Position numbers and translations under genes: made by a program
Shown: piece by piece, positions 568 through 30,101 of the stretch
Position numbering within the stretch: position 1 is the first letter of the stretch
Layout: every line of letters begins with the position of its first letter
The notes under the pieces: model-generated
Database searches by the model: none
Told to the model about the DNA's origin: nothing
Seen by the model: only the letters and a program-made list of their open reading frames with translations
Assembly: GCF_900176365.1 (NCBI RefSeq)
Contig: NZ_FWXY01000011.1
Location: forward strand, 62,001 to 126,000
DNA: 64,000 bases
Origin: Desulfocicer vacuolatum DSM 3385
GTDB taxonomy: Bacteria > Desulfobacterota > Desulfobacteria > Desulfobacterales > Desulfobacteraceae
Reading direction: 5' to 3'

Positions 568-665
568 TTATTTCAACCTAAGTTGATTTATTATGCTAAC
601 AAGGCAACCTGTTGTGAAAATTTATTCTTTTTGTGGAACAACAAATAGTTATTGGAGATTGTGTG

Positions 666-2105
666 ATGTCGGATTTTGAAATCGGGTTTGAGCCCAGGCT
701 TACCTTTTTAAGTCAGGAAGATAAAAAAAAATTATATGCATCTGCTTTGCAGGTTATGGAAGAAACCGGTATGCTGGTTCAGCATGAAGGGGCATTAAAA
801 CTGTTATCCCATGCCGGGTGCAAGGTGGGAACAGACGGCATGGTTCGAGTGCCCGCGGCCCTGGTGGAAAAAGCCAGAAGCACGGTGCCCAATAATATTG
901 CCATGTATGACCGTGAGGGAAATCATGCCATGGATCTTGGCGGCAGACGGGCTTATTTTGGTACTGGTTCTGATTTGATGTGGTCTGTGGAGTCTAAAAA
1001 CATGCAGCGCCATCGTACCTCTCTGGAAGACATTAAAACTGCAGCAAGGGTATGTGATGCTCTTCCCAATATCGATTTTATCATGTCCTTTGCCCACCCC
1101 CATGAAATGAATCCTGCTCTTTCGTATCTGGCAAGCTTTAAAGCCATGGTTGAAAATTGTACAAAACCCATTGTTAATACTTCGGAAAATCGAAATGATC
1201 TTGAGGCCATGTGGGAAATTTCCAAAATTTTGCGGGGGAGTGAAAAAGAGTTGCGGGAAAAACCATATTGGATACAGTATGCCGAACCCATAAGTCCCCT
1301 GAAACATCCCTTTACCAGCCTGGACAAACTGATTTTCTGTGCAGAAACCGGCTCCCCTGTGATTTACTCTCCTGCCCCCATTGCAGGCTCCACCGCACCC
1401 ATGAGTGTTGCCGGTCACATTGTCCAGGGGCTTGCCGAATCTTTTTTCGGCATGGTGGTTCACCAGCTCGCAGCCCCCGGAGGTCCTTTTTTGATGGGCA
1501 TTGGTGCAGCGGTTCTGGATATGAAAAGCGGGCAGTGTTCCTACAATGCACCGGAGTATCTTCTCACTTACATGGCCATGATCGAGATGAGTAATCATCT
1601 GGATATTCCCAACTGGGGATATGGCGGTACCAGTGATGCCCAGATTCCGGATATGCAGGCATCCTACGAGGCAGGTCTTGAAGCTTTTATGTCTGTTTTT
1701 GCAGGCTCCAACCTTAACCATGATGTGGGATATCTTGATTTTGGGCTCACCGGCAGTCTGGATATGATTGTCATTGTCAATGAAATGGTGGATCAGATTC
1801 AGCGAATGTACAAAGGCATTCCCATAAATGACGATACCCTTGCCATGGATGCCATTTCCCAGGGATTTGCCCAGGGGCAGTTTCTCACCACCCCCCATAC
1901 CATTAAACATTTGAGGAATGTGCAGTGGGAACCGGAATTGTTTTTTCGCCAAGGGCATGATAAGTGGGTTGAGCAGGGAAGGACTTCCCTGTTGGACCGG
2001 GCACGCACCAAGCTGAATTATATTCTTGACACCCATGAACCCCTGGCCGTCCCCCATGAAAAGCAGGCTGCCATTTCAAAGATAGTTGACAACTTTTTAA
2101 AATAA
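666..2105 (+). CDS. MttB-family corrinoid methyltransferase (non-pyrrolysine)
   Basis: 479 aa, belonging to the trimethylamine/glycine-betaine methyltransferase family, whose members move a methyl group from a quaternary or tertiary amine to a cognate corrinoid protein. The C-terminal part has the family signature around NDDTLAMDAI and FLTTPHT. The frame is open throughout with no in-frame TAG, so it is a non-pyrrolysine member like the betaine methyltransferase MtgB, not a true TMA methyltransferase. ATG 666 is preferred over the in-frame GTG 633 because GGAG lies 8 bp upstream of it. It is the first gene of an operon with a HutC-type regulator and a histidine-pathway enzyme, which points to an amine related to histidine, or to glycine betaine; the substrate cannot be read from sequence. 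No corrinoid protein gene is adjacent. Confidence 0.85.
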   Translation: MSDFEIGFEPRLTFLSQEDKKKLYASALQVMEETGMLVQHEGALKLLSHAGCKVGTDGMVRVPAALVEKARSTVPNNIAMYDREGNHAMDLGGRRAYFGTGSDLMWSVESKNMQRHRTSLEDIKTAARVCDALPNIDFIMSFAHPHEMNPALSYLASFKAMVENCTKPIVNTSENRNDLEAMWEISKILRGSEKELREKPYWIQYAEPISPLKHPFTSLDKLIFCAETGSPVIYSPAPIAGSTAPMSVAGHIVQGLAESFFGMVVHQLAAPGGPFLMGIGAAVLDMKSGQCSYNAPEYLLTYMAMIEMSNHLDIPNWGYGGTSDAQIPDMQASYEAGLEAFMSVFAGSNLNHDVGYLDFGLTGSLDMIVIVNEMVDQIQRMYKGIPINDDTLAMDAISQGFAQGQFLTTPHTIKHLRNVQWEPELFFRQGHDKWVEQGRTSLLDRARTKLNYILDTHEPLAVPHEKQAAISKIVDNFLK

Positions 2106-2973: not shown

Positions 2974-4586
2974 AAAAAATCGTTGAATGTGTGCCAAATT
3001 TTTCCGAAGGTCGGGATGAAGCTGTTATCAATGCCATTGCCCATGCCATTCGTGAAACAAAGGGATGTACCCTGTTGGATGTGGATCCGGGAAAATCCAC
3101 ACACAGAACAGTGTACACCTTTGTGGGAGATCCTGACAGCGTCATTGAAGGCGCCGTGGCTGCTGCCCGGGTGGCCAAAGAAAAGATAGACATGCGTGTG
3201 CACAAGGGAGAGCATCCCCGGTTTGGTGCCATGGATGTGTGTCCGTTTATTCCTGTGGCCAACATTACCATGGAAGAGTGTGCAGACATTGCAAAACAGT
3301 TTGCAAAAAAAGCGTCTGAAGAGTTGAATATCCCCTTTTTCCTTTATGAGGAAGCTGCAGAACACGATTACCGGCGTAAACTTCCCGATGTCAGAAAAGG
3401 TGAATATGAGGCCCTGGAGGAGCGTCTTAAAGATCCCCGCTGGAAACCTGATTTTGGCCCTTCTGAGTTTGTTCCCACCTGGGGAATCACAGCCACAGGT
3501 GCCCGCATGTTCCTCATTGCCTATAATGTGAATATTCTGGGAACCTCCAACCAGGCCCACCGCATTGCCTTGAACCTGAGGGAGGCTGGCAGGGGGGATG
3601 ATGATCCTGGGCGTTTAAAAGAGGTGAAAGGCATGGGCTGGTTTGTGGATGAGTACAATATGGCCCAGGTCACTGTGAATCTTAACAATTATAACACAAC
3701 CCCCATCCATGTCCTTTTTGAAGCAGTGAAAGAGGAAGCAAAGGCCTTGAATATTGCTGTGGCCGGTTCTGAAATTGTGGGTATTGTCCCCCTGGAATCG
3801 CTTATCATGGCAGCGGACTATTACATTGAAAAGGAAAATCTCTTTATCTATGAAGAGGATCAAAAAGTTCGCCTGGCCATTGAACGTCTGGGACTCAATT
3901 CTGTGGCAGTATTTAATCCCCAGGATAAAATCATTGAATACATTGTGGCAGAACCGCCGGAAGAGCCCCTGGCCAACTTGACAGTAAGGGGATTCATTGA
4001 AGAAATTGCGGCCCGCACGTCGGCCCCGGGGGGAGGCTCTGCATCGGCTGCCATGGCAGCCGTGGGAACAGGCCTTGGTTCCATGGTGGCCAAACTCACC
4101 CAGGGGGTAAGAAAATTTGAGGCCGTGGATTCCCACATGCGCAAAAATATTCCCACACTCCATGAATTGACCAAACAGTTGATTCCCATGATTGATGCAG
4201 ATACTTCTGCCTTTAATGAATACATGGAAGGACTTCGCATGCCCAGGGCAACAGAGGCAGAAAAAACAGCCAGAACTGCAAAGATGCAGGCAGGACTTAA
4301 AACGGCCATCAATATTCCCCTGGGAACCATGCGGTTGGGAGATAAAGCCTGGGATGCCCTTTGTGAAGTTGCCCGGTACGGAAATCCTGCATCAAAATCC
4401 GATACCCAGGTGGGGGCACGGGCACTGGAAACAGGTATCTGGGGTGCGTATCAGAATGTGTTGATTAATATAAAGGATATCCATGATGAGGATTATAAAA
4501 TAAAAATCCTTGAGGAAGCCAATGCCATGGAAAAACGATCCAGAGAAAAATGCGCTGAAGTGCTGGCCATCCTGGATCAAATATGA
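2970..4586 (+). CDS. ftcD: Bifunctional glutamate formimidoyltransferase / formimidoyl-THF cyclodeaminase
   Basis: 538 aa, the expected length of the fused enzyme. The N-terminal half (about residues 1-300) is the formiminotransferase with the motif KGEHPRFGAMDVCPFIPV; the C-terminal part (about 335-535) is the cyclodeaminase with the APGGGSASAAMAA loop. It moves the formimino group of N-formimino-glutamate, made from histidine, to THF and converts it to methenyl-THF plus ammonia. That feeds one-carbon units to the same THF pool used by the GcvT-type proteins further on. The start overlaps the stop of the HutC-like gene by 4 bp. Urocanase and imidazolonepropionase, needed between HutH and this enzyme, are not in the window. 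Confidence 0.93.
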   Translation: MKKIVECVPNFSEGRDEAVINAIAHAIRETKGCTLLDVDPGKSTHRTVYTFVGDPDSVIEGAVAAARVAKEKIDMRVHKGEHPRFGAMDVCPFIPVANITMEECADIAKQFAKKASEELNIPFFLYEEAAEHDYRRKLPDVRKGEYEALEERLKDPRWKPDFGPSEFVPTWGITATGARMFLIAYNVNILGTSNQAHRIALNLREAGRGDDDPGRLKEVKGMGWFVDEYNMAQVTVNLNNYNTTPIHVLFEAVKEEAKALNIAVAGSEIVGIVPLESLIMAADYYIEKENLFIYEEDQKVRLAIERLGLNSVAVFNPQDKIIEYIVAEPPEEPLANLTVRGFIEEIAARTSAPGGGSASAAMAAVGTGLGSMVAKLTQGVRKFEAVDSHMRKNIPTLHELTKQLIPMIDADTSAFNEYMEGLRMPRATEAEKTARTAKMQAGLKTAINIPLGTMRLGDKAWDALCEVARYGNPASKSDTQVGARALETGIWGAYQNVLINIKDIHDEDYKIKILEEANAMEKRSREKCAEVLAILDQI

Positions 4587-4650
4587 TTTTACTTTAAAGG
4601 ATGCGTTGTTCAGACAAGAAAAATAATCAACGTATTCCCTCTCCGTGACA

Positions 4651-4692
4651 TGTTCCACGTGAAACTTCCCCTGGTCTGTTTCACGTGGAACA
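4651..4692. other. parS: Pair of inverted parS-like centromere sites
   Basis: TGTTCCACGTGAAACT (4651-4666) matches the bacterial parS consensus TGTTNCACGTGAAACA at 15 of 16 positions. TGTTTCACGTGGAACA (4677-4692) is, on the minus strand, an exact match. The two face each other across a 10-bp gap, between the 3' ends of two convergent genes. ParB binds such sites to load the partition complex, usually near the replication origin. The inverted arrangement also makes a long hairpin, so a terminator for the flanking convergent genes is an alternative or additional role, but it has no T-run and the parS match is very specific. Confidence 0.75.
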
Positions 4693-4694
4693 CC

Positions 4695-5456
4695 TTATGT
4701 TGCACATGAAGGGTAAAAACGACTTCCAATTTTATGGCGTGATCCTGGATAAATGAAACGATTCTGGGTGGCCACTGTGCTGTTTATCCAGGTTCGGCGG
4801 TGAAGAATCAAGCAAGGTTCTGCACGGGAAATTTCCAATAGCTCTCTGCTCCACTTATCCGGCATCATGGCTTCAATAACATGCTCCACCTCCATGGCAG
4901 GACATATTGCCTGCAGATAGTCACTGGGGGTAATGCGGGTAAAATCCTGTTTTAAAAAATCCGGGGCCACAACCGGATTGATATATCGATCTTCCAGTTG
5001 GATGGGAACACCATTGTCCCTGTGCACCAGGATGGCATGGTAAACCGGCATATTTAATCTAAGTTTCATGTCTGAGGCTACCTTTGGGCTGATTTTTTCC
5101 TGCTGCAACAAATGGATATCACAGGAGTGCTCCCCTCCCCTTTCTATTATTTCCCTGGCAATGGAACGAATCCTTAACAATTCAGTCTGGGGTTTGTGGC
5201 GGGCCACAAAGGTTCCCACGCCCTGGAGGCGAACCAGCTTGCCCTCTGCCGTGAGTTCACGAAGAGCCCGATTCACGGTCATGCGTGAAACCCCCATGGT
5301 TTTTACCAGGCTGTTTTCAGAATCAATCTTCATATCTGGTTTCCACTTTCCCGATTTAATTTTTTCCAGAATATGATCCTTTACCTGTTGATATAAAGGG
5401 CTGGGGGCGATAGTTGATTCTATAGGATTTAAAGGCATATTTATTAATCGTTCCAA
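4695..5456 (-). CDS. GntR-family transcriptional regulator, HutC/UTRA type (second copy)
   Basis: 253 aa. The winged helix is near residues 20-90 (NSLVKTMGVSRMTVNRALRE), the UTRA domain near 105-245. It is closely similar along its length to the regulator at 2188-2973 (shared ITVNRALREL/MTVNRALREL, LVRLQGVGTFVA, LEDRYINPVVAPDFLKQDF), so the two are paralogues that may share operators. It is convergent with ftcD and separated from it by the parS pair. Start codon ATG 5456 is uncertain: the internal Met at residue 7 is also possible. Ligand presumed to be urocanate or another histidine-pathway intermediate. Confidence 0.83.
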   Translation of the reverse strand: MERLINMPLNPIESTIAPSPLYQQVKDHILEKIKSGKWKPDMKIDSENSLVKTMGVSRMTVNRALRELTAEGKLVRLQGVGTFVARHKPQTELLRIRSIAREIIERGGEHSCDIHLLQQEKISPKVASDMKLRLNMPVYHAILVHRDNGVPIQLEDRYINPVVAPDFLKQDFTRITPSDYLQAICPAMEVEHVIEAMMPDKWSRELLEISRAEPCLILHRRTWINSTVATQNRFIYPGSRHKIGSRFYPSCAT

Positions 5457-8425: not shown

Positions 8426-10012
8426 ATGCTGGTAAGAGTGAAACAGTATTTTATAAATAACTTTGAACAACTTTTTGTGCTGACTATCCTTCTCAGTGTC
8501 ACAATTATCAATTACTATGTACCCTATAAATTGGCTTTTTTAAATTTTTATTTTATTCCCGTCCTGGTTGCATCCTATTTTCTTGGAAAAAATAATACCA
8601 TGTTCGGTGCTCTTTTGTGTATTTTCTGGGTGATTCTCATTGTTTTTTTATCGCCCACCTCTTTTTTATTTGAACAAACCCAATTCAGCCTTTTTTTTAA
8701 TATTGTTGCCTGGGCTTCTTTTCTTTTGCTGGCAGGTGGAATCATTGGGAAACTTCAAGAGCAAAATAAGCACCTTATTCAACGTCATAAAGAACAGAGT
8801 GACGCTCTATTCTCTCGCTTATCCACCCATCTGTCCGTGTCCGCAGATTTAAGTTCAGAGTTGGATTTTGATTCCTTGTTTAATTTAATTGTCCATAAAT
8901 TGAGCGAAGCCATGAAGGCCGAGCGAACCAGCCTTTATCTAATTGATGAAAAAAATCAGGAGGTGTGGACCAGGGCCGCAGAGCAAATAGAAGATATTCG
9001 CCTGCCGTTGGGTAACGGTATTTGCGGAAAAGTTGCAGAGACTGGAAAAATCATCAATGTTAAGGATGCTTGGACGTTACCGTATTTCAACCGTGAGTTT
9101 GATCTTAAACACAACTTCAGAACCAAAGCCATGATTTGCATGCCCATAAATAATCGGGCGGGAAAAAGAATGGGGATCATTCAGGTTATCAATAAGGTTG
9201 ATGGCGGTTTTTTCTGCAAAGAAGATGAAAAATTTTTAAAAGGACTGCTTTCGCAAGTGGCCATTGCCCTGGAAAATTCTTTTCTCATGGATGAGCTGGA
9301 ACTTTCCTTTGAAAGCTCCATTAGGACTCTGTCGGCCACCGTGGATGCAAGACACCCCTTGACTGCCGGCCATTCGTTACGCGTCACGGAATACTCTCTT
9401 CTGGTGGCCGAGGAAATGAAATTAGGAAAAAAGGATCAGGAAGTCATAAAATATGCAGCCATTCTGCATGATATCGGTAAAATTGCTGTAAAAGACTCAG
9501 TTTTGTTGAAAAATGGGCAATTCTCTGATGAAGAGCGTGCCGAAATGAATATTCATCCTGCAAAAACAATGGCAATACTGGAAAAATTTTATTTCCCAGA
9601 AAATCTTCAAGAAGTTCCCTTTGTTGCGGCGTGCCATCATGAAAAAATCAATGGTGAAGGATATCCCCAAGGCTTAAAAGGAGATCAATTTCCCCTGGGG
9701 TCAAAAATTTTGGCAGTTGCCGATGTATTTGATGCCCTGACTTCCCCCAGAGATTATCCCAAATACGATGGAAACGAAATATTAAACTTTACGGCCATGC
9801 CCCTGGCCAGGGCCATGGGTATTTTGGAAAATGAGCGGGGAAGCCATTTTGATTCCAATGTCGTGGATGCATTTCTGCGGATATTACCCCAGGCACTTGA
9901 ACGCCACCGTGGAACTCATTTTTCTGATGAATATATAGATGATTACTATGAAAGTATCGCTGACATGACAACCATTGAGGCACAACCCACAAAAGCAAGA
10001 TCAAACAGTTAA
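8426..10012 (+). CDS. Membrane-anchored GAF / HD-GYP domain protein (putative cyclic-di-GMP phosphodiesterase)
   Basis: 528 aa. Four or so hydrophobic segments (about residues 15-115) are followed by a GAF domain (about 150-290) and an HD-GYP domain (about 300-500) with HDIGK and the GYP region. HD-GYP proteins hydrolyse cyclic di-GMP. The usual HHExxDGxGYP reads HHEKINGEGYP here, so the Asp is Asn; metal ligands HD and HH are intact. ATG 8426 has CTGGAG upstream. The gene converges on the gcvT-glyA fusion, and the two stop codons share TTAA (10009-10012). No cognate cyclase is adjacent, so its target process is unknown. Confidence 0.85.
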   Translation: MLVRVKQYFINNFEQLFVLTILLSVTIINYYVPYKLAFLNFYFIPVLVASYFLGKNNTMFGALLCIFWVILIVFLSPTSFLFEQTQFSLFFNIVAWASFLLLAGGIIGKLQEQNKHLIQRHKEQSDALFSRLSTHLSVSADLSSELDFDSLFNLIVHKLSEAMKAERTSLYLIDEKNQEVWTRAAEQIEDIRLPLGNGICGKVAETGKIINVKDAWTLPYFNREFDLKHNFRTKAMICMPINNRAGKRMGIIQVINKVDGGFFCKEDEKFLKGLLSQVAIALENSFLMDELELSFESSIRTLSATVDARHPLTAGHSLRVTEYSLLVAEEMKLGKKDQEVIKYAAILHDIGKIAVKDSVLLKNGQFSDEERAEMNIHPAKTMAILEKFYFPENLQEVPFVAACHHEKINGEGYPQGLKGDQFPLGSKILAVADVFDALTSPRDYPKYDGNEILNFTAMPLARAMGILENERGSHFDSNVVDAFLRILPQALERHRGTHFSDEYIDDYYESIADMTTIEAQPTKARSNS

Positions 10013-12684
10013 AAAGATCCCAGAAAATTTTCTTTTAAATCCAGGATTTCATTGTCGTTAAAGCAATACGCCATGTCAAGGAACCGGCTGCGAAATTGTT
10101 CCACATCACCGGAGGCATCCACGCCCTTTTGAATCACATCTGCCATGATGCAGGCCAGGGCTTCAAAGTCTGTTTCCTTCATGCCGAAACGGGTCATTTC
10201 GCTGACCCCGAGACGGATACCCGAGCTGACCGTAAAGCCTTCATCACTGGGAATGGCCTGGTAATTACAGATAATATGATTTTTCTCCAGGGCCTTGGCC
10301 GCCTCAATACCTTTGCCATACCCCACCCCCACAATGACCTGGTGGGTCTGGGTAAAATCCATGGCAGCGTCCCCCTGGACATCCAGGCCCGTTTTTTTCA
10401 ATGCCCGGGCAAAGGCCTTGGCATTGGCAATGACCTGGCGCTGGTATTCATCTTTAAAGGTGTTCATTTCCATGGCTGCAACCAGAAGCCCAAGAAGGCT
10501 TCCCAGGTGATGATTGGAGACCATGCCGGGGAAGGCTCTTTTACGGATGGTCTGCCACAGCTCATGTTCCGGTGTGTTTTCCCCATCAAAAGCACATCCC
10601 ACAACCCCCCTCTGGGACCCGAAAAATGTTTTGTGGGTGGAGCCGGTGACCAGGTCTGCCCCCTCTTTAAAGGGTTCCTGGAAATGGGGACCAATGAGCC
10701 CCAGAACATGGGCCATGTCATACATCAAAATGGGACGTTTGTTCATGGATTCCAAAAGGGACTTGACCTGGGCCACAGGTTCCGTGTGAAGCACCATGGA
10801 CTTGCCAAACACCATCAGTTCAGGATCTATATCGGCAAGCAATGCCTCCAGGGCATTGAGATCCATCTGGTAGGGGTTGTCTTGAAGTACGGGAAAATTA
10901 AACACATTAAATTTTTCCGTAACAGGATTTTTGGCAATGTAGTCCCGCAATGCGCCCATGGGCTGGGCCGAAAGATGCCCTCCCCTGCCGATGTGGTTGG
11001 TAACGGCACAGGCAATGCGGCCGGGTTCCCTTTTTAAATTTCCCCGGTTCCGCCATTGGACCATGGCACTGAAGGCGGTCATGTTGGCCATCTGCCCACT
11101 CACCGATCGACACTCCACCAGGGGGCATCCCATGAACCGGGACATTTCATGGGCCAGGGCCTCTTCCACCCAGGCGATGAAATCGCATCCCTGGTAATAG
11201 AACACCTCTTGCTCATAGGCCGCAGCCAGTTCCTTGTGTTCGGCATATCGTCCCACGGGATCACTGACCTGGACAAGGCGGGTCCATGGGGACGGGGTCA
11301 TTTCAGAAGGAATGAGATTGATGCATTTTGTCTGTCGCCACTGATGATTTTCCCAGCTTTTTGCAAGCACCCTTTTAAAGCGTGAAATCCCCTGGGTCAT
11401 GGAATTATTATCATGGGATGCCGGAATTTCGTAACCTTCCAAAATGGGATGAAAGTAAGGCGGTGCATCGGAACGCCCATGTGCTTTAACCACCATGGCG
11501 TTGAGGGTGCGTTTTCTCACCTTGATCTGCACCGTCTGTCCGACTTGTATATGGGCATCCAGGAGCCCAAGCACAATGGATCGCTTCCCGGTTTTATCCG
11601 TGGGGGTCATCTCAACCCCATGGCCCTTAAATTGCCAAAAAGGAACGGATGTGCCGCTGGTGATATCCCCCACTTTTTGCTCATCCATGAATACTTCCGC
11701 CCCTTGTCTGGCAACGCCTTTGTCCATCAATGCCAGGCACTTGATGCGCCTTGGCAGGGGTGTCTCTTTTTCAAAAATTCCCTGACGCTGATTTTCATGG
11801 GCCGTCCATTGCCGGGTCAGGGCCTCTTTTCCCACAAAATTTTTCTTTAACGGACTTAAACTCACGGCCACCGTGGCAAGGGGAATGGCAAATATGGGAA
11901 TTTTTTTTTCATCCGGTCCCAGGCCCAGTTCATGGCCATACAGTGGCATGCCTGCCTCCAGGCGCAGGGTGTCCCGGGCCCCCAGACCCACCTGGACAAT
12001 GTTTAACGCCTGCCCTTGGCTGAAAATGGATTCCCATAAAAATACAAATTGATCTGCCGGAGCAAAAATTTCAAAGCTGTTGGGTTCCCCGGTGTAACCG
12101 GTTCTGGAGACCAGGCAGGAAACGCCGCAAAGATCCATTTGGGAGAGGCTGTTCTGGTTGGGTTCGGGAAGAGGAGATTTCCGTGCCACCCGGGTGATGA
12201 GTTCCTTGGCCATGGGGCCCTGAATAGCCATCAATGAAAGGGACTCCGTGTGATTTTCCAGAGTGACATCATCAAATTTGTCGGCGATTTTAATGAGATG
12301 CTTCCAGTCTTTTTCACTGTTGGATGCATTTACCACCAACAGGTAATCCTCCTTGTCAAACCGATATAAAAAAGCATCATCCAGGGCATATCCATTCTCA
12401 TCGGAAATTATGGTATAATGGGCTTCCCTCGGCTGCAGGGCCTGGGCATTACCGGTGAGTGCCCTTTGCAGGAAGGCGATTTTGTCTTTGCCTTTAATGC
12501 GAAAGCGCCCCATGTGACTTACGTCAAACATGCCGCCATATTTTCGGGTGGCAAGGTGTTCCTTAATCACACCGGAATCATATTGCACCGGCATGTCCCA
12601 GCCGGCAAAATCAACCATCTGACCACCATTGTCTTTGTGCCATTGGTAAAGGGGTGTTTTTCTGCATTTATTGTCAGGGCTCAT
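10009..12684 (-). CDS. Fused aminomethyltransferase (GcvT) - serine hydroxymethyltransferase (GlyA)
   Basis: 891 aa in one frame. Residues 1 to about 430 are a GcvT/T-protein domain (FAGWDMPVQYDSGVIKEH, MFDVSHMGRF, SRTGYTGE, MPLYGHELG). Residues about 440-891 are an SHMT with the PLP lysine near residue 695 in GSTHKTFFGSQRG. GcvT makes methylene-THF from an aminomethyl donor and SHMT joins methylene-THF to glycine as serine, so the fusion could channel the one-carbon unit. GcvP and GcvH are not in the window. ATG 12684 is preferred to 12711 because AAGGTGG lies 5 bp upstream. It is the last gene of the minus-strand island carrying demethylating flavoproteins. The SHMT half is divergent from ordinary GlyA, so its exact aldol activity is inferred. 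Confidence 0.88.
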   Translation of the reverse strand: MSPDNKCRKTPLYQWHKDNGGQMVDFAGWDMPVQYDSGVIKEHLATRKYGGMFDVSHMGRFRIKGKDKIAFLQRALTGNAQALQPREAHYTIISDENGYALDDAFLYRFDKEDYLLVVNASNSEKDWKHLIKIADKFDDVTLENHTESLSLMAIQGPMAKELITRVARKSPLPEPNQNSLSQMDLCGVSCLVSRTGYTGEPNSFEIFAPADQFVFLWESIFSQGQALNIVQVGLGARDTLRLEAGMPLYGHELGLGPDEKKIPIFAIPLATVAVSLSPLKKNFVGKEALTRQWTAHENQRQGIFEKETPLPRRIKCLALMDKGVARQGAEVFMDEQKVGDITSGTSVPFWQFKGHGVEMTPTDKTGKRSIVLGLLDAHIQVGQTVQIKVRKRTLNAMVVKAHGRSDAPPYFHPILEGYEIPASHDNNSMTQGISRFKRVLAKSWENHQWRQTKCINLIPSEMTPSPWTRLVQVSDPVGRYAEHKELAAAYEQEVFYYQGCDFIAWVEEALAHEMSRFMGCPLVECRSVSGQMANMTAFSAMVQWRNRGNLKREPGRIACAVTNHIGRGGHLSAQPMGALRDYIAKNPVTEKFNVFNFPVLQDNPYQMDLNALEALLADIDPELMVFGKSMVLHTEPVAQVKSLLESMNKRPILMYDMAHVLGLIGPHFQEPFKEGADLVTGSTHKTFFGSQRGVVGCAFDGENTPEHELWQTIRKRAFPGMVSNHHLGSLLGLLVAAMEMNTFKDEYQRQVIANAKAFARALKKTGLDVQGDAAMDFTQTHQVIVGVGYGKGIEAAKALEKNHIICNYQAIPSDEGFTVSSGIRLGVSEMTRFGMKETDFEALACIMADVIQKGVDASGDVEQFRSRFLDMAYCFNDNEILDLKENFLGSF

Positions 12685-12930
12685 GGGTTCCACCTTTGCA
12701 AGGTTAAGCATTTTATTTTTGGAGTCTCACTGTTCATATAACTGTTTTATTGTGATATTTTAAAAAAAACAAGAAAAAGTTGTAGAAAACCGCAAGAATA
12801 AACACTTTGCCTTTTCCATGAATCTATCTGGGTTTTAAAGCCCTGAGAGGCTGTTTAAAAACAGATGAAACGGCTGCAATCCCATGGAATTTCAATTTTT
12901 CCCCTGAATTTTTAAATAACATCTAAACAA
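12685..12930. other. Intergenic region upstream of the gcvT-glyA fusion
   Basis: About 250 bp of AT-rich sequence that should hold the promoter of the fusion gene. No repeat copy and no convincing -24/-12 element was found. A short segment around 12840-12900 (CTGTTTAAAAACAG) is a local palindrome of unknown meaning. Confidence 0.35.
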
Positions 12931-12963
12931 AAAGGCGAATCAGTCAACAACCGATTCGCCTTT
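12931..12963 (-). terminator. Rho-independent terminator of the usp gene
   Basis: The arms AAAGGCGAATC and GATTCGCCTTT form an 11-bp stem, followed on the minus strand by a T-run (TTTTTGTTT). It is about 45 bp beyond the usp stop and ends that transcript, so the gcvT-glyA gene downstream needs its own promoter. Confidence 0.75.
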
Positions 12964-13007
12964 TCAATTTTACGTAAAACCATGGAGTGATGGAAAAATT
13001 TAAATAA

Positions 13008-13610: not shown

Positions 13611-13793
13611 CAAGGTAAACCCCAAAGCTTACCTCAGCAAAGCCCGCCCCGAGGGGCAATAGGAACCGGCCAATTGAGCTGTCTACAGTTCCGGCCGGGA
13701 CCATTGCCCCTCGGGGGGGGGGCGGCATAATGCCATTTGACTCCGGGTCTACGACCCTATATTCGTTGTGTCCGATAGGGCATGTGGGTTATA
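13611..13793 (+). repeat. R2 repeat, copy 1
   Basis: A 180-bp element whose centre is a very stable hairpin: CCCCGAGGGGCAAT (13647-13660) pairs with ATTGCCCCTCGGGG (13703-13716), and inside it CCGGCC pairs with GGCCGG. The far end (GTGGGTTATATCA) runs into the stop codon of the ETF:quinone oxidoreductase gene at 13794, so on the minus strand it could act as a terminator for that gene. It is related to the copies at 46973 and 53431. Confidence 0.8.
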
Positions 13794-15800
13794 TCAACTG
13801 GTTGCTTCATCCATGATTTCAGCAATATCTTTTACCGGAATAACTGTGTCGGTTTCAAGAATACCGTCATTGAGCATGGTGGCACAAAAGGGACATGCGG
13901 CACACACGGTTTTTGCACCGGTGGCAACGGCCTCGGCGGCCCGGACGTTATTGATGCGCTCTCCAATGGTTTCCTCCATGAACATCCTGGCACCTCCTGC
14001 ACCGCAACACATGCCTTTGGAAAAATTTTTATCCATTTCCACAAGATTTCCACCGCTGTTTACCCGGGTGATGAGTTCCCGTGGGGCCTGATAAATATTA
14101 TTCCACCGACCAAGATAACAAGAATCATGGAAGGTGATATCCCCCATCTCTTTACGATTGATGGTCAAACGTCCCTGGTTTGCCAGATCCAGCATGTATT
14201 CTGTGTGATGTACCACAGGATAGGACGCATCAAATTGAGGGTATTCATTTTTAATGACATTGTAACAGTGTGGGCAGCCGGTGAGAATCATTTTGGGTTT
14301 ATACTGATTAAACACTTCGGCATTTTGCTGGATGAGCATTTGGGCCAGATATTCGTTGCCGGCCCGGCGTGCCATGTCTCCGTTGCAGCTCTCTTCTGGT
14401 CCCAGGATGGCAAAATTAACCCCGGCTTTTTGAAGCACCCGGGCCGTTGCCTGGGCAATCTTTTTTCCCCGGTCATCAAAGGAACCTGCACATCCCACAA
14501 AGTAGAGCACATCGGCATCTGGTTTATCACTGATCAGAGGCACATCCATGCCCTTGCACCAGTCTGCCCTTGTGTCTGCACTGAAACCCCAAGGGTTGCC
14601 CTGGTTTTCAATGTTGGTAAAGGTTTCCTGCATTTCTGCGGGGAAATTGGCCTCCATGAGCACCTGGTGTTTACGCATCTCAATGACAAAATCCAGATGC
14701 TGGTTGTTCACCGGGCAAATATCCTCACAGGAGCGGCATGTTGTGCAGGACCAAAGCACATCATCGGTGACAGGAGATCCTTCCCGCATGAGGGGTTCAA
14801 TCTCGTCTTTTTCATCCCCCAGAAGTTTGTCTGCCTGGTCAAACAGATCGACCTTAAAATCATGGAGAATTTTTTTGGGTGACAATGGCTTACCTGTTCC
14901 CGATGCAGGACACAGCTCTTCGCATCGTCCACACTCGGTGCAGGCATATAAATTAAGCACATTCTTCCAGTTGAATTCACTGCATTTGCCAAGCCCGAAG
15001 GTTTCGGCCTCTTCATCTTCAATATCTGTCTTTAATATTGCTTTCTCCATTTCCAGAGGTTTAACAAATACGTTGGGAGCTGCCGCCAGAAGATGGAGAT
15101 GCTTGGAGCCGGGGATATAAATAAGAAAGCCTAATATGGTGCCTATGTGGATGAAATAACTCAGTTCATATCCAAATATAACTTGCCCCTGGGAAAGACC
15201 GGAAAGCCCAAAAATAGAAACCAGAAGCCCGGATATGGGAAAAATACCGCTGTGGGAAGCAGCCCCTGCTTCCAAGGGCATGAGGGTCTGGAAGGCATTG
15301 ATGAAGTGAAAGGAAATTATAATAACACAGGTAAACAAAATAATCAGATTGGCATCCCGCCCCATGGTGAGATACTCCGGCTTAATAACTGTTCGGCGGT
15401 ACAGGGCATAGGCAAAGCCCACCAAGACAAAAAAAGCCAGAATATCTGCAATAAAAAGGTATCCGGTATAAATGGAAGGAATAATATGCAGCAGGTCAAA
15501 TGAGGGAAAGACTCCCCGGATCATCAATTCCAGAGAGTGAACCTGTATGGCCAGGAATCCAAAGAAAATAAGGGTGTGGGAAATACCAGGCATGAGTTTT
15601 CTGCGGACATTGGTTTGCCCGAGCACATCTGTGAATAATACCTTGATTCGATCTGATATTCTGTCCACGGGTTTTTCCACCACCCCATCCACAGCCATCA
15701 TGATCTGGTAAAGTCGTTTCACTTTAAGGAAAAAATATCCAAAGGCGGCCACCAGTGCCACAAACATAACAATTGATTTTACGATTAAATAGTTTTCCAT
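13794..15800 (-). CDS. Membrane-bound Fe-S ETF:(mena)quinone oxidoreductase, HdrD/CCG-domain type
   Basis: 668 aa. About six membrane segments (residues 5-235, NarI-like) are followed by a two-cluster ferredoxin domain (Cys 287, 290, 293, 297 in CTECGRCEELCP and Cys 352, 355, 358, 362 in CTTCRSCEDICP) and by two CCG-type cysteine domains (including CCGAGGARM). Proteins of this DUF224-like architecture sit next to etfAB in syntrophs and sulfate reducers and pass ETF electrons to menaquinone (family knowledge). ATG 15800 begins the first membrane helix (MENYLIVKSIVMF); the longer frame to 15893 is hydrophilic and unlikely. It is co-oriented with etfA and etfB upstream, so it probably takes electrons from dimethylglycine or sarcosine oxidation. 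Confidence 0.85.
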   Translation of the reverse strand: MENYLIVKSIVMFVALVAAFGYFFLKVKRLYQIMMAVDGVVEKPVDRISDRIKVLFTDVLGQTNVRRKLMPGISHTLIFFGFLAIQVHSLELMIRGVFPSFDLLHIIPSIYTGYLFIADILAFFVLVGFAYALYRRTVIKPEYLTMGRDANLIILFTCVIIISFHFINAFQTLMPLEAGAASHSGIFPISGLLVSIFGLSGLSQGQVIFGYELSYFIHIGTILGFLIYIPGSKHLHLLAAAPNVFVKPLEMEKAILKTDIEDEEAETFGLGKCSEFNWKNVLNLYACTECGRCEELCPASGTGKPLSPKKILHDFKVDLFDQADKLLGDEKDEIEPLMREGSPVTDDVLWSCTTCRSCEDICPVNNQHLDFVIEMRKHQVLMEANFPAEMQETFTNIENQGNPWGFSADTRADWCKGMDVPLISDKPDADVLYFVGCAGSFDDRGKKIAQATARVLQKAGVNFAILGPEESCNGDMARRAGNEYLAQMLIQQNAEVFNQYKPKMILTGCPHCYNVIKNEYPQFDASYPVVHHTEYMLDLANQGRLTINRKEMGDITFHDSCYLGRWNNIYQAPRELITRVNSGGNLVEMDKNFSKGMCCGAGGARMFMEETIGERINNVRAAEAVATGAKTVCAACPFCATMLNDGILETDTVIPVKDIAEIMDEATS

Positions 15801-15894
15801 GATTGAGTTATTTCCTTGGGGTTTGTCTGGGCTTGATTTTAACTGGGGGCCCCCCTGGTGTTTTGGCGGCCACCGATGAAAAGAGTTTTCCAAA

Positions 15895-15928
15895 ATCCGG
15901 TGGAGTAAAAAAACTTACCCCACCGGAT
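15895..15928 (-). terminator. Hairpin between etfA and the quinone oxidoreductase gene
   Basis: ATCCGGTGG (15895-15903) and CCACCGGAT (15920-15928) are perfect 9-bp arms around a 16-base loop. On the minus strand the stem is followed by TTTTGG, a weak T-run. It may be a partial terminator or stability element that sets the ratio of EtfA/B to the membrane protein. Confidence 0.45.
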
Positions 15929-15996
15929 GTCAATTTCTTTCTTTAACTATTCTCACGTCCGACACCAGATAGGGTTGGCCGGGTCAAGAAATAATT

Positions 15997-16947
15997 TTAT
16001 TTTAAGGCCTCTGTCAACGCCGGAATGACCTCAAAGATATCTCCGATGATGCCGTAATCAGACTTTGCAAATATGGGAGCATCCTTGTCAGTGTTAATTC
16101 CCACAATGACTTTTGAGGTTTTCATTCCGGCAAAATGCTGTACGGCCCCGGAGACTCCACAGGCCAGATAGAGCTTTGGCCCCACAGTTTTTCCGGTTTG
16201 TCCCACCTGCATGGCGTGGGGGGCATAGCCTGCATCCACGGCGGCCCGGGACGCGCCCACGGCAGCCCCGAGAAGGGCGGCACACTCTTCGAGCATGGTG
16301 AAATTTTCAGCAGATTTAATGGCCCGGCCACCGGTGAGGATTACAGGGGCCTCTGTGAGGTCAATTTTACCGCCGTCCCCCTTTTTCCTTTCAATGATTT
16401 TAACCCCGGCACCATCGGCAACCGTTGCAGAAAAAGAGAGCACTTCGCCATCCACCGGGGCCTCCACAGCCTCAATGGCATTGGGTCTTACGGTGCACAG
16501 CATAAGATCGGCATCCACCTTTACAGTGGCAAAGGTTTTACCCGAAAAATGGGATTTTACGCCGGATTTTTCATCAATATCCACTGAGATACAGTCAGAT
16601 ATCAGGGGAAGATCAAGGCTTGCTGCCATACGGGCGAAAAGATCTCGTCCAATGGTGCTGGCAAGGCCCATGACAGCTTTAAGATCATACTCTTTTGCCG
16701 CAGCGGCAATGGCTCCGGCCTGGGCTTCCGGACTTGCGGCAAGATCACCTGATGCAAGGGAAACGGCAATAACTTTCTGAACACCAAACTTACAAAGTTC
16801 AGCTTTTAACGCCTCTGCATCACCGTCAATGAGAAGGGCATACACCTCATTGTCTCCGCCCTTTCCCCGGGCAGCCGTCAGAACACCAAAATTGGTTTCC
16901 TTGATTTTTCCTTCACCCGTTTCTATTAAAACACCTGTCCTGGTCAT
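15997..16947 (-). CDS. etfA: Electron transfer flavoprotein alpha subunit (copy 1)
   Basis: 316 aa. The N-terminal domain (1-190) and C-terminal FAD domain are present, with the FAD-binding region PKLYLACGVSGAVQHFAGM and the end motif IIGDIFEVIPALTEAL. With EtfB it accepts electrons from flavoprotein dehydrogenases. GGGAGAA precedes ATG 16947. It follows etfB with 168 bp between them, and the membrane oxidoreductase that reoxidises ETF comes next. The second pair at 28075-29833 is clearly diverged, so the two may serve different dehydrogenases. Confidence 0.93.
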   Translation of the reverse strand: MTRTGVLIETGEGKIKETNFGVLTAARGKGGDNEVYALLIDGDAEALKAELCKFGVQKVIAVSLASGDLAASPEAQAGAIAAAAKEYDLKAVMGLASTIGRDLFARMAASLDLPLISDCISVDIDEKSGVKSHFSGKTFATVKVDADLMLCTVRPNAIEAVEAPVDGEVLSFSATVADGAGVKIIERKKGDGGKIDLTEAPVILTGGRAIKSAENFTMLEECAALLGAAVGASRAAVDAGYAPHAMQVGQTGKTVGPKLYLACGVSGAVQHFAGMKTSKVIVGINTDKDAPIFAKSDYGIIGDIFEVIPALTEALK

Positions 16948-17115
16948 ATTTTTGTTCTCCCTATGAACAATTTAAACTTTATCTTGTGACAACAATTTAA
17001 CATGGCACATTGCAATTGCTAAAAATCAAAATCTGTCATGATGATGCAATGCCAACCACACCCGTTTGCAATGAACATTCCCTGACATTGTGTCATGGTA
17101 ATGCAATGGGTTTGT

Positions 17116-17886
17116 CTATATGATTTTTTCGTCTTCCCTGAGGACTTTTATCAATTGGGCCACCTGCTCCTGCACAGAGCCTTCCAGCATTTTTGCTCCG
17201 GACCTCTCAGGAACAGCTTCCAGTTTCACAAGTTGGGATGCGCCTGCGTTTTCATCAATGCCCAGATCACCAATGGCCATTTCCTGAATTTTTTTCTTTT
17301 TGGCCTTCATAATATCCGGAAATTTAGGATACCGGGGTTCATTGAGCCCCTTGGTGGCACCGATGATACCCGGCAGGGGCATTTCCAGAACTTCCCGCTC
17401 TCCTCCGCCGATCTCTTTTTCCATGGTGGCTTTCTGACCGTCAATGGTCAGCCGGGACACTTCATTGACCACGGGAAGCCCCATGGCGGCAGCCAGTCGA
17501 TACTGGGTCTGGGCACCTTCTGTATCCACAGAGCCTTTTCCTGTAAAAATAAGATCAGCAGCACCATCCTGATCCATGGCAGCCTTGAGCGCTTTGGCTG
17601 TGAGTGTGCTGTCCAGAAACTGCCCCTGGGTCTGAACATGGATGGCCCTTGCAGCCCCCATGGCCATGGCACTTCTGAGGGTGGCGGTGGCAGCACCTTT
17701 ACCAACGGTGACAACGACCACTTCTCCACCCTCTTTTTCCACCAGACTCACTGCCTCTTCCAGGCCGTATTCGTCGTAGGGATTTACAATGAATTTGCAT
17801 TCTGAATCTTCAAATCCGTTATCCCCAACCAGCTTTATATTGGCTGCAGTATCGGGAACATGCTTGATGCATACAAAGATTTTCAT
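17116..17886 (-). CDS. etfB: Electron transfer flavoprotein beta subunit (copy 1)
   Basis: 256 aa. MKIFVCIKHVPD at the N-terminus and the AMP/nucleotide-binding loop VGKGAATATLRSAMAMGAARA are typical. It pairs with EtfA (15997-16947). Its place between the dimethylglycine-dehydrogenase-like gene and the quinone oxidoreductase suggests the electron route flavoprotein, ETF, membrane Fe-S protein, menaquinone (inference). The start ATG 17886 has AGAGGAT upstream, and a candidate -24/-12 promoter lies about 75-100 bp upstream. Confidence 0.93.
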   Translation of the reverse strand: MKIFVCIKHVPDTAANIKLVGDNGFEDSECKFIVNPYDEYGLEEAVSLVEKEGGEVVVVTVGKGAATATLRSAMAMGAARAIHVQTQGQFLDSTLTAKALKAAMDQDGAADLIFTGKGSVDTEGAQTQYRLAAAMGLPVVNEVSRLTIDGQKATMEKEIGGGEREVLEMPLPGIIGATKGLNEPRYPKFPDIMKAKKKKIQEMAIGDLGIDENAGASQLVKLEAVPERSGAKMLEGSVQEQVAQLIKVLREDEKII

Positions 17887-17952
17887 AATCTCATATCCTC
17901 TGAATCTTAACGTTTTTTGTTAGAAAATCCGGGCAAGGGGATTTTCAAGTTT

Positions 17953-18006
17953 TGTTGTGGCGAATACAAAAGCAAATATCGGTCCGCCTGTGGTGGTTTA
18001 CATAAA
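17953..18006 (-). repeat. R1 repeat, truncated and altered
   Basis: The left third of R1 on the minus strand (GTCCGCCTGTGGTGGTTTACATA at the CCGCC end, TTTTGTTGTGGCGAATAC at the other). Relative to intact copies the middle is changed to GCAAATATCGGTCC, which creates the candidate -24/-12 promoter described separately. Confidence 0.55.
17971..17987 (-). promoter_or_regulatory. Candidate sigma-54 promoter of etfB-etfA, inside an R1 remnant
   Basis: On the minus strand CGGACC-GATAT-TTGCT places GG and GC exactly 10 bases apart, as in sigma-54 promoters (consensus TGGCAC-N5-TTGCW; the first T is C here). It is about 85 bp before the etfB ATG. The match is imperfect and the basis is sequence only. 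Confidence 0.35.
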
Positions 18007-18007
18007 A

Positions 18008-18053
18008 ACAAATGATGATGTCGCAGTAAAACGTCTGGTTCATCATCATTTGT
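18008..18053 (-). terminator. Rho-independent terminator of the dimethylglycine dehydrogenase-like gene
   Basis: ACAAATGATGATG (18008-18020) and CATCATCATTTGT (18041-18053) make a perfect 13-bp stem with a 20-base loop; on the minus strand it is followed by TTTTTATG. It separates the dehydrogenase gene from the etfB transcript. Confidence 0.75.
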
Positions 18054-18178
18054 CAAATCCTTTGGTATTCTTTATCTTGCTTTGCAAACGGGATTATAGT
18101 CTTTAAAAATTTTTCTCAAAAAAAAGTTTCCACGGAAAGCATACTTTAAGAAACCAAGGATAACTGTTCTTTATAATT

Positions 18179-20599
18179 TCAGGCTTTCATTTTTTCATTT
18201 TTGGGATCATACAGCGGCATGGAAACCACTTCTGCTGATCTCATTCTGCCCAGAATCTCAACTTCCAGTTTTGTGCCGGGAACTGCCAGTTCCGGGGCGA
18301 TGTACCCCAAAGCAATACTTTTGTCAACACGGTGTCCGTAACCGCCGGCAGAAGTGATGCCCACTCTTTCACCGTCTTTGTAGATACCATTGTATCCATA
18401 GGGATCGGAATCAGTGGCTTCCACAACCATGCAGGCCAGTTTCTGGGTGATATCAGCTTCTTTTTTCTTGAGAAGCGCCTCTTTTCCAATAAAATCCTTA
18501 TCCCATTTAACAGTCCAGGCCACATTGGTTTCCAGGGGGTGATGATGACGATTCATCTCACATTTCCAGGCAAGATAGCCTTTTTCCAACCGCATGGAAT
18601 CCATAGCATACATGCCGAACATTTTCAGATCAAACTCTGCGCCTGCTTCCATGAGATGGTTGTACAGGGAAATCTGCTGCTCCATGGGATGGAAAATTTC
18701 ATACCCAAGCTCTCCCACATAGTTCATGCGGTTTACCCGGCATTTCACCCGGCCCACGTAGATTTCTTTGGTGGTGCTGAATTTGAAATTTTCATTGGAA
18801 ACATCATCATAACTGGCCTTGGCAAGGACCTCCCGGCTTTTGGGTCCGGCAAGAACCAGACATCCCATTTTGTAAGTAAGGTCTTCCATTACAACGGAAC
18901 CGTCTTCCGGGAGATTCTGGAGCATCCAGTGCTGATCATGTTTTTTACCCACACTGGCGGTGACACAGAAATAGTCATTTTCTGCGGTGCGGGACACGGT
19001 CATATCCGTTTTAAACATTCCTTCATGGTCAAGGCAGGGAGTTAAGGAAAGGGCACCGTCCTTTGTGGGCACTTTCTGGCAGGTGAGATTGTTCAGCCAT
19101 GCCTCGGCACCGGGTCCGGAAATGCGGGTTTTTGCAAACCGTGTAAGATCCAGAAGTCCCACTTTTTCCATAACATGCTTGCATTCGGCCTTTACATTCT
19201 CAAAGGAGTTGTTGCGTCGCCAGGAGGGGGTTTCGTGATTGTCTTCCCCTTGAGGTGCAAAGTAATTGGGGCATTCCCATCCAAAATAATCCCCAAAAGA
19301 GGCATTGGCAGCCTTCTGGTATTCAAATATGGGGCTGGTACGATTGGGTCTGGCTGCATCCCGCCACTCATTGGGATAGATGATGGAATAGAGTCTGGGA
19401 TAGGTATCTGCAATTTTCTCATGATTATAGGCCCAGTTGGCAAAACTACCGTATCTACGGCTGTCCATGTCCCACAGATCGATTTCAGGTTCTCCGTTCA
19501 TGATCCATCCGGCAAGGAAATGGCCGATGCCGCCGGCCTGGGTAATGCCGAAACTGTAGCCACAGGCATGGTAGAAATTTTTCAGGGGAGCGGCCGGACC
19601 CACCAGGGGATCTCCGTTGGGGGTGTAGGTGATGGGGCCGGCAGTGACATGCTTAAAGCCTGTATCGCCCAGTACGGGGAAGCGGTACATGCCGTGCTCA
19701 ATGTTTTCGGAAATGTTATCAATGTCCGGGTTGATTTCCGTCTGGGCATAATCCCAGGGTACCCCTTTGGCCTTCCACTGCTGGCCGTATTTTTCGTACA
19801 TGCCAAGAATCAGACTGTCCATTTCCTGGCGAAGATAGATGGAACGATCAGGATCACGTACCAGCGGGAGCATGGTTTCACGTTCGTCAACGGCATTGAT
19901 TTTTTCATAGAGGATATGGGTGTGGGCAATGGCGATGGAGGGGATTTCAAGACCCACCATTTTGGCAACTTCCGGGGCCCACAGACCTGCGGCATTGATT
20001 ACATGTTCACAGGTGATGTCTCCCTTGTCTGTTTTTACCAGCCAGTCGCCGGAGGCAAGTTTTTCAATGCCGGTGACCATGGTGTGAAGATTCAGCTCTG
20101 CACCGTATTTTCTGGCACCCATGGCCAGGGCCTGGGTCAGACTGTTGGGGTCCACATCCCCGTCATCTGGCCAGTAAAGGCCTCCAAGCAACCCTTCTGT
20201 GTGCATTAACGGATGCAGCTCCTTCATTTTTTCCGGAGTAACCCAATCCACATCCAGGCCCAGACATTTACTCATGGAATAGAAATATCCCAGTTCGTCC
20301 ATTCGATTTTTATTATCTGCCGTACGGATGGAACCTGTGGTGTGCCAGCCGGTATTCTGGCCGGTTTCTTTTTCAAGGTTCTTGAAGATTTCAATACTCT
20401 TCATGTTTACCTGGGTGCCGTAATAACTTGAATGAAAAAAGGAAACATTGCCTGCGGCCATCCAGGTTGATCCAGAGGTGAGTTCATGTTTTTCCACAAG
20501 AACCACATCATTCCCCCAGCCATATTTCGCCAGATGATAAGCAACACTTACACCAATAGCTCCACCGCCGATAACCACTGCCCTTGCATTTGTTTTCAT
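18179..20599 (-). CDS. Dimethylglycine/sarcosine dehydrogenase-like flavoprotein with GcvT domain
   Basis: 806 aa. The N-terminal DAO/FAD domain (GGGAIGVSVAYHLAKYG, about 1-380) is followed by the FAO_M-type bridge and a C-terminal GcvT-like THF domain (about 430-800, with GELGYEIFHPMEQ). Family members oxidatively demethylate dimethylglycine or sarcosine and hand formaldehyde to THF, giving methylene-THF, with ETF as electron acceptor. The histidine that links FAD covalently in DMGDH/SARDH (STWHAAG) is Met47 here (STWMAAGN), so FAD is probably not covalently bound by that bond. ATG 20599 has AGGAGAG upstream. Neighbours etfBA and a Liv-type importer fit; the exact substrate is inferred. Confidence 0.83.
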   Translation of the reverse strand: MKTNARAVVIGGGAIGVSVAYHLAKYGWGNDVVLVEKHELTSGSTWMAAGNVSFFHSSYYGTQVNMKSIEIFKNLEKETGQNTGWHTTGSIRTADNKNRMDELGYFYSMSKCLGLDVDWVTPEKMKELHPLMHTEGLLGGLYWPDDGDVDPNSLTQALAMGARKYGAELNLHTMVTGIEKLASGDWLVKTDKGDITCEHVINAAGLWAPEVAKMVGLEIPSIAIAHTHILYEKINAVDERETMLPLVRDPDRSIYLRQEMDSLILGMYEKYGQQWKAKGVPWDYAQTEINPDIDNISENIEHGMYRFPVLGDTGFKHVTAGPITYTPNGDPLVGPAAPLKNFYHACGYSFGITQAGGIGHFLAGWIMNGEPEIDLWDMDSRRYGSFANWAYNHEKIADTYPRLYSIIYPNEWRDAARPNRTSPIFEYQKAANASFGDYFGWECPNYFAPQGEDNHETPSWRRNNSFENVKAECKHVMEKVGLLDLTRFAKTRISGPGAEAWLNNLTCQKVPTKDGALSLTPCLDHEGMFKTDMTVSRTAENDYFCVTASVGKKHDQHWMLQNLPEDGSVVMEDLTYKMGCLVLAGPKSREVLAKASYDDVSNENFKFSTTKEIYVGRVKCRVNRMNYVGELGYEIFHPMEQQISLYNHLMEAGAEFDLKMFGMYAMDSMRLEKGYLAWKCEMNRHHHPLETNVAWTVKWDKDFIGKEALLKKKEADITQKLACMVVEATDSDPYGYNGIYKDGERVGITSAGGYGHRVDKSIALGYIAPELAVPGTKLEVEILGRMRSAEVVSMPLYDPKNEKMKA

Positions 20600-20737
20600 G
20601 TAAAAGCTCTCCTTTTTTTGATTCAAGTAAGTACCCTTTTATCTCACCAGTGCAGAGATGAATACACCTTTGCAGATGAGGTGCTTTCCATCAAAGGGTT
20701 ATTTCTAAAAGCGACTTGATTGCTTTAAAAATGCATA

Positions 20738-29034: not shown

Positions 29035-29056
29035 GATTCTTCCTTATTGCCACCTG

Positions 29057-29833: not shown

Positions 29834-29903
29834 AAATCATCACCTTTGGATCAAAATACCATTTTCAATATTTGTTGCTGATATTGTCGGCATTTACGAA
29901 AAA

Positions 29904-30015: not shown

Positions 30016-30020
30016 CTACG

Positions 30021-30053: not shown

Positions 30054-30101
30054 AACGACGTTTTAATTCATCCAACCCATGTCAGAATATGCCTGCATGG
30101 A

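Follow-up and report, generated by a model that had tools for sequence, protein, structure and literature searches.

A fusion gene encoding a glycine-cleavage T-protein (GcvT, an aminomethyltransferase) and a serine hydroxymethyltransferase (SHMT) lies on the minus strand of a 64-kb (64,000-nucleotide) stretch of the Desulfocicer vacuolatum DSM 3385 genome (contig NZ_FWXY01000011.1, positions 62,001 to 126,000), referred to here as the window. The gene is a single uninterrupted frame in which both halves are complete, the T-protein being followed by an SHMT of archaeal type. A first-pass annotation of this DNA had proposed that one frame joins the two enzymes, and the Pfam domains GCV_T, GCV_T_C, and SHMT indeed all score above their cut-offs (SHMT at residues 453 to 854, E = 8e-36, 123.9 versus 27 bits; residue numbers are those of the 900-amino-acid [aa] frame). 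We also favor the start that it had chosen, the ATG at 12684 (Met10): the sequence AGGTGG lies five bases upstream, and this codon is at most three residues from the common start of the family.

The T-protein half exceeds the NCBIfam cut-offs of the gcvT equivalogs (TIGR00528, 261.2 versus 235.85, residues 17 to 410; NF001567, 314.3 versus 300). A flavin adenine dinucleotide (FAD) oxidoreductase (DAO) domain was not found in the chain at E ≤ 1, which places the protein outside the dimethylglycine dehydrogenases (DMGDHs) and sarcosine oxidases; dimethylglycine dehydrogenase/oxidase (5l46, 1pj5) shares the GCV_T fold, but with an FAD oxidase partner in place of SHMT. The AlphaFold2 model that we used was built from 74 family sequences (predicted local distance difference test [pLDDT], 90.8; predicted template modeling score [pTM], 0.88), a model from only 18 sequences being poor (pTM 0.49); its lowest-confidence loop, residues 571 to 580, lies inside the SHMT half (mean pLDDT 58). 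Among the 74 fusions, the stretch from P418 to N455, which includes the linker, ranges from 32 to 113 residues (median 34), and its 113-residue form, in the fusion of G001 (L029:8411-11314), contains a Gln/Thr-rich repeat.

Structure comparisons, including Foldseek, match residues 15 to 420 to T-proteins and residues ∼440 to 899 to SHMTs. The N-terminal half resembles the T-proteins 1yx2 and 1wos (T. maritima) over the whole fold (Z 48.4 and 47.5; root-mean-square deviation [rmsd] 1.9) and shares with T-proteins the folate-site aspartates, the gcvT equivalog score, and frequent gcv neighbors, but the fusion adds a C-terminal SHMT half of ∼440 residues. The closest SHMT is MjSHMT (4bhd, the best match, and 4uqv; Z 41.9, rmsd 2.2 over 394 residues, 32% identity), an enzyme that works with tetrahydromethanopterin. 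It has the pyridoxal phosphate (PLP) lysine loop and core residues in common with the fusion, which differs in being joined to GcvT, in having insertions in folate-side loops, and in having Y-Q for K-N at E. coli positions 346 and 347 (E. coli SHMT numbers were placed by motif). Bacterial GlyA shares the core PLP and substrate residues with the SHMT half, but is only 20 to 28% identical to it in the structure alignments listed, has other folate-side residues, and forms a separate branch in a quick tree.

Catalytic residues are conserved in both halves. Besides the aspartate pair Asp111-Asp112, which lies at the folate site of the T-protein, Asn128, Glu214, and Arg246 are invariant across the 74 aligned fusions. 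In the SHMT half, the lysine loop GSTHKTFFGSQRG is as the first-pass annotation quoted it when calling it divergent, and it resembles the loop GSTHKTFFGPQGG of the Methanocaldococcus SHMT; such divergence is a trait of the archaeal-type SHMT branch. Its Lys694 is present in all 74 fusions, as are the equivalents of E. coli S35, E57, Y65, S175, D200, H203, K229, and R363.

Table 1. Coordinates of the fusion gene, its domains and key residues, and flanking features in the window
Feature	Position	Strand	Remarks
GcvT-SHMT fusion gene	10009..12711	-	900 aa from ATG 12711; 891 aa from the preferred ATG 12684
T-protein folate-binding domain (Pfam GCV_T, residues 21-262, E 1.3e-76)	11926..12651	-	
T-protein C-terminal barrel (residues 321-420)	11452..11751	-	Pfam GCV_T_C; structure match to residue 414-420
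Inter-domain linker (~residues 419-437)	11401..11457	-	pLDDT dip to 63 at residues 431-440
SHMT half (residues 438-880)	10072..11400	-	Pfam SHMT 453-854; structure match to MjSHMT 4bhd
Asp111-Asp112, aspartate pair of the T-protein half	12376..12381	-	74/74 fusions; aligns with DD of T. maritima T-protein 1woo
Lys694, PLP lysine in GSTHKTFFGSQRG	10630..10632	-	Aligns with the canonical SHMT lysine; 74/74 fusions
Terminator-like hairpin between the universal-stress-protein gene and the fusion	12929..12965	-	17 pairs, stem into U-run, -23.4 kcal/mol, z -7.7
Membrane FeS/cysteine-rich oxidoreductase, electron-transfer flavoprotein (ETF) alpha and beta, DMGDH-like FAD+GCV_T protein	13794..20626	-	Context only

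A survey of taxa with the fusion, which the first-pass annotation had suggested, yielded 17 further genomes of the window's order and loci in several phyla. The search for the former covered 58 genomes, the window's included, and found the full fusion in 18, the other 17 copies being 47 to 51% identical to the window's along the full length (G010 and G041 have partial matches on short contigs and are left out of the 18-genome counts). When the SHMT half was used to scan public species genomes, at least 572 relatives were confirmed, and the best 80 of them make up our public loci. GcvT and SHMT share one frame at 74 of these 80, although L035 and L051 are clipped by contig ends and the GcvT part of L100 contains a frame break; the rest are clipped by contig ends (L072, L089, and L098), apparently split (L088), or unfused (L061 and L040, planctomycete metagenome-assembled genomes [MAGs] in which gcvT and the SHMT gene lie 197 bp apart on the same strand). 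Record titles of the 80 loci include Desulfobacterota-type, Planctomycetota, Bacillota, Actinomycetota, Armatimonadota, SAR324, and Gammaproteobacteria, a list that MAG binning errors may inflate. The same join thus occurs in independent genomes of several phyla, which excludes an assembly error, the origin that the first-pass annotation had named as fatal to its proposal.

Within the window's phylum (395 genomes), 51 genomes match the SHMT half at E ≤ 1e-60, and in 33 of these, the window's included, it is fused (frame ≥744 aa). The phylum also contains a distinct group of stand-alone archaeal-type SHMT-like proteins of 420 to 460 aa (L155-L165). The quick tree places the 74 fusion SHMT halves, together with three unfused ones, on a single branch distinct from both canonical GlyA and MjSHMT (SH-aLRT 100). 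There, the window's copy groups with a Desulfohalobiaceae copy (73% identical; SH-aLRT 97), outside the copies of its own family, a placement that points to lateral transfer or to an old paralogue. One genome, G458 (L080), encodes two distinct fusions, with frames of 887 and 888 aa.

We examined gene neighborhoods in three locus sets: the 80 public loci, 17 loci of the window's order, and 12 of the family of G455 (record titled Oscillospiraceae). At least one of gcvH, gcvPA, and gcvPB lies near the fusion at 34 of 80, 4 of 17, and 12 of 12 loci, respectively, and two or more at 31 of the 80 (gene families were confirmed by spot check on reference genes and examples). These arrangements, such as fusion-gcvH-gcvPA-gcvPB, often lack a separate gcvT. 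A glycine riboswitch precedes the fusion closely in every one of the 20 Bacillota loci tested (8 of 8 in one set and 12 of 12 in the family of G455) and also at the Phycisphaerae locus L060; where its distance from the script-set start codon was measured, in 20 of these loci, it is 25 to 268 nucleotides (nt). The fusion frame was located at 11 of the 12 loci of the family of G455, the exception being L153, which has a frame break and its riboswitch ∼140 nt from the fusion. In Dethiosulfatarculus (L042), a glycine riboswitch sits by the other gcvT.

Two other neighbors may touch on serine. At L022, a gene (3522-4721, minus strand) combining a 2-hydroxyacid-dehydrogenase N-terminal domain with an SbnI/SerK-like serine-kinase part lies between the fusion and gcvH-gcvPA-gcvPB, and in two MAGs from Desulfohalobiaceae (L032:3122-4390 and L033:8401-9660) the fusion is immediately followed by a DUF1015 gene, possibly a clue to serine metabolism for the DUF1015 family. 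Within the window's order, no conserved neighbor emerged: neighbors vary, and the recurrent ones (a major facilitator superfamily transporter, a DsbD-like protein, DUF3786, and an acyltransferase/G3P-dehydrogenase-like protein) gave no common function.

In a number of genomes, the fusion is the only copy of its enzymes that we found. It is the sole GCV_T frame (E ≤ 0.001) in 19 of 28 public genomes; these were hand-picked from the 80, in most cases because gcv genes adjoin the fusion, with isolates added. A second set gave 9 of 14 and shares two genomes, G449 and G455, with the first. The same is true of G036 and of the single-contig genome G033, which has gcvH-gcvPA-gcvPB without an adjoining gcvT; GcvP is present in all 18 fusion genomes of the window's order. 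As for SHMT, 15 of 50 holders (drawn from the 80 loci) show no other match over the cut-off; 13 of them have the fusion and 2 the unfused pair, and G477 is included although it has a further match that falls short of the cut-off. In a 150-genome sample of the family of G455, canonical SHMT is absent from 8 of 14 holders versus 17 of 136 nonholders (Fisher p = 3e-4, uncorrected for kinship). We scored G518 as lacking it despite a further, weak match (440 aa, E = 6.4e-8), likewise G587 and G620 (best E = 2.8e-4 and 8.4e-5), and scored G602, with canonical SHMT and a 397-aa frame at E = 4e-32, as a nonholder. Among 147 Pirellulales genomes, 5 are without canonical SHMT, and 3 of those 5 have a fusion-type SHMT (one unfused); at least one holder, G662 (unfused), has both types. 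Genomes for this survey and for that of the family of G455 were requested at a completeness of 90, with no values given in return.

In nine genomes (G452, G453, G456, G460, G500, G581, G606, G618, and G637), we found neither a T-protein nor an SHMT besides the fusion; in G581, the contig carrying it makes up 2.55 Mb of the 2.6-Mb genome. Such genomes are as would be expected if both halves are active, and an inactive SHMT half is unlikely because genomes without another SHMT were found. The fusion thus appears to replace the separate T-protein and, in some genomes, GlyA as well.

These data make it probable that the fusion is a bifunctional component of glycine cleavage that forms methylene-tetrahydrofolate (THF) from aminomethyl-H-protein and then passes the methylene unit to a second glycine to make serine. 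The P-protein decarboxylates glycine onto the H-protein; the T half would then take the aminomethyl group from the lipoyl-H-protein, releasing ammonia and forming 5,10-methylene-THF, and the SHMT half, which belongs to the archaeal-type branch of the PLP-dependent SHMT superfamily, would add the methylene unit to a second glycine, yielding serine and returning THF. With the P- and H-proteins, the sum would be the reversible conversion of 2 glycine to serine, CO2, and NH3. Hand-over of methylene-THF between the halves may be local, limiting its loss as formaldehyde, and the serine might be deaminated or, perhaps, phosphorylated, as the serine-kinase-like gene at L022 and DUF1015 in Desulfohalobiaceae would allow. 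What the sequences themselves show are the complete halves, the conserved catalytic residues, the recurrent gcv context, the glycine riboswitch in Bacillota, and the replacement of the separate T-protein and, in some genomes, of GlyA; from there, we infer the activity of each half and serine as the product, and propose local hand-over. For the fusion family, genome context is that of a T-protein working with GcvP and GcvH; the window's genome has its gcv genes elsewhere, along with a second GcvT.

Several observations weigh against this assignment. The SHMT half is below the cut-off of the NCBIfam SHMT model (252.8 versus 335), as is that of the homologous fusion in G581 (264.1 versus 335), whose T half, like the window's, passes the gcvT model, and its folate side is altered: H126 is replaced by K/R/N/Q, K346 by Y/F, and N347 by Q, the second Arg of the TRRG motif is F, and insertions occupy folate-side loops, after E57 and elsewhere. 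MjSHMT, too, departs from canonical SHMT at H126 and R372. Because of the noncanonical H126, K346, and N347 positions and the NCBIfam score, we did not file the SHMT half as GlyA-type. As for context, the available stretch shows no gcv genes at 46 of the 80 public loci, some of them clipped by contig ends, and among the non-Bacillota loci tested, a glycine riboswitch precedes the fusion in just 1 of 16 (Phycisphaerae, L060). Canonical SHMT is kept in 35 of the 50 holders and 6 of the 14 in the family of G455, canonical GlyA is kept in all 18 fusion genomes of the window's order, and the public genomes are mostly MAGs for which completeness values are not given, so that absences are weaker than they look. 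The window itself has no glycine riboswitch, and tblastn found no gcvH, gcvPA, or gcvPB in its 64 kb, in line with the first-pass annotation, which saw no GcvP/GcvH nearby. A gcvT-gcvH-gcvPA-gcvPB cluster (families confirmed) is on another contig of the genome, and so is a standard glyA, for which the first-pass annotation had advised looking. In D. vacuolatum, then, the fusion is an additional copy beside separate GcvT and GlyA; it could take methylene-THF from any source, and its carbon source is less certain there.

If the fusion is bifunctional, the two enzymes might nevertheless be ordinary ones that are simply joined, with equal expression as the only gain and no channeling; we give this an even chance. 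The variable length of the linker stretch, from 32 to 113 residues, fits it, as do the closely spaced unfused genes at L061 and L040 and, according to PMC12452182, the gcvT-gcvH-glyA-sdhA operon of Streptomyces with its glycine riboswitches, in which T-protein and SHMT are coregulated by glycine but are separate proteins. Against it, the architecture is conserved from Desulfobacterota to Bacillota and Planctomycetota, the pTM of 0.88 suggests a defined domain arrangement, and the SHMT half is altered at residues on its folate side. More tentatively, methylene-THF from the T half may pass directly to a remodeled SHMT folate pocket, bypassing the bulk pool; together with the P- and H-proteins, the fusion would then form a closed "2 glycine to serine" unit, stop formaldehyde leakage, and be the sole glycine-serine link in some Oscillospiraceae-type and other species. 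Adding SHMT in vitro to the E. coli glycine cleavage system suppresses the formaldehyde otherwise lost from methylene-THF, according to PMC7227101, and this would be a reason for fusing T-protein and SHMT.

The first-pass annotation had the fusion pass a one-carbon unit to glycine to make serine; that logic stands, but not the donor that it proposed. In its scheme, methylene-THF comes from oxidative demethylation of dimethylglycine or sarcosine and is added to the resulting glycine, which we consider improbable. In its favor are the DMGDH-like FAD+GCV_T protein, ETF, and membrane oxidoreductase encoded at 13794-20626 on the same strand as the fusion, the four GCV_T frames of 819 to 974 aa (the window's DMGDH-like one included) that the genome has besides the fusion and gcvT, and the separate GcvT and GlyA, which free the fusion for another job. 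However, a universal-stress-protein gene and the terminator-like hairpin separate the fusion from these genes (the hairpin was recognized in the sequence; a consensus terminator scan did not list it), and the DMGDH-like enzyme owns a GCV_T domain. In relatives, EtfA, EtfB, or the flavin part of a DMGDH-like protein was found near the fusion at 0 of 80, 0 of 17, and 0 of 12 loci, where gcv genes and glycine riboswitches occur instead; DMGDH-query hits below 150 bits were dropped from these counts because the fusion's own GcvT half matches that query. A membrane oxidoreductase gave one weak match (66 bits) in each of the 80- and 17-locus sets, and the closest relatives, L032 and L033, have DUF1015 rather than demethylase genes beside the fusion. 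Gene neighborhoods thus led us to reject a demethylase as general partner; in the window's genome itself, demethylation may still supply methylene-THF.

It is very unlikely that the SHMT half is instead an L-threonine-transaldolase-like enzyme or another beta-hydroxy-amino-acid aldolase: ObiH (7k34) is the second-closest solved protein, the half has a sub-cut-off NCBIfam SHMT score, an altered folate pocket, and a longer loop after E57, and the equivalent loop 1 marks transaldolase clusters, one with an 11-residue insertion (PMC10495429), but MjSHMT is closer (E = 1.6e-48 versus 3.2e-34 for ObiH), the fluorothreonine transaldolase model TIGR04506 scores 120 against a cut-off of 650, the half is fused to a folate enzyme, recurrently near gcv genes and behind glycine riboswitches in Bacillota, and it is the sole SHMT-family frame found in the nine genomes where the fusion is also the sole T-protein.

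Elsewhere in the window, a very stable long hairpin (13640-13735, minus strand, -63.4 kcal/mol, z -6.1) lies between the membrane oxidoreductase and universal-stress-protein genes. Two ETF pairs, each with an amine-oxidizing flavoprotein (the DMGDH-like FAD+GCV_T protein in one case and a stand-alone DAO in the other), are encoded near a Liv-type ABC transporter (18179-20626, 15997-17886, and 28075-31439, all minus strand); these two sets likely serve N-methyl amino acid catabolism. An MttB-family methyltransferase (Pfam MTTB; 633-2105, plus strand), which scores below the NCBIfam trimethylamine methyltransferase cut-off, adjoins the histidine-utilization genes FTCD, HutC, and HutH. A glycyl radical enzyme and its activase (33203-35605 and 32224-33174, minus strand) are also present; the enzyme is above the PFL2-3 subfamily cut-off and below those of choline lyase, hydroxyproline dehydratase, and the other listed equivalogs. 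A cobalamin riboswitch (55850-56042, plus strand) lies directly upstream of genes for a BtuC-like permease and an ATPase.

Glycine cleavage and SHMT are textbook partners, as in photorespiration and the reductive glycine pathway, and a 1994 study cited in PMC7227101 reportedly addressed the passing of methylene-THF between them as separate enzymes. Our literature search of PubMed Central (PMC) articles under CC0, CC BY, and CC BY-SA licenses found, among the matches listed, no description of a GcvT-SHMT fusion and no paper on sarcosine together with glyA, and the available parts of PMC7227101, PMC7547702, PMC12452182, and PMC10495429 do not mention such a fusion. The component enzymes and their pathway are known; what appears undescribed among these openly licensed articles is their union in a single chain, how widely this form occurs, and its taking the place of both separate enzymes.

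Because the T half passes the NCBI cut-off and the SHMT half misses it, fusions are likely to be annotated as GcvT only, an annotation gap that may give a host the appearance of having no SHMT. For synthetic reductive-glycine routes, in which formaldehyde leakage is a cost, the fusion is a candidate component. As a natural fusion, controlled in Bacillota by a glycine riboswitch, it would allow the question of methylene-THF hand-over to be tested in one protein.

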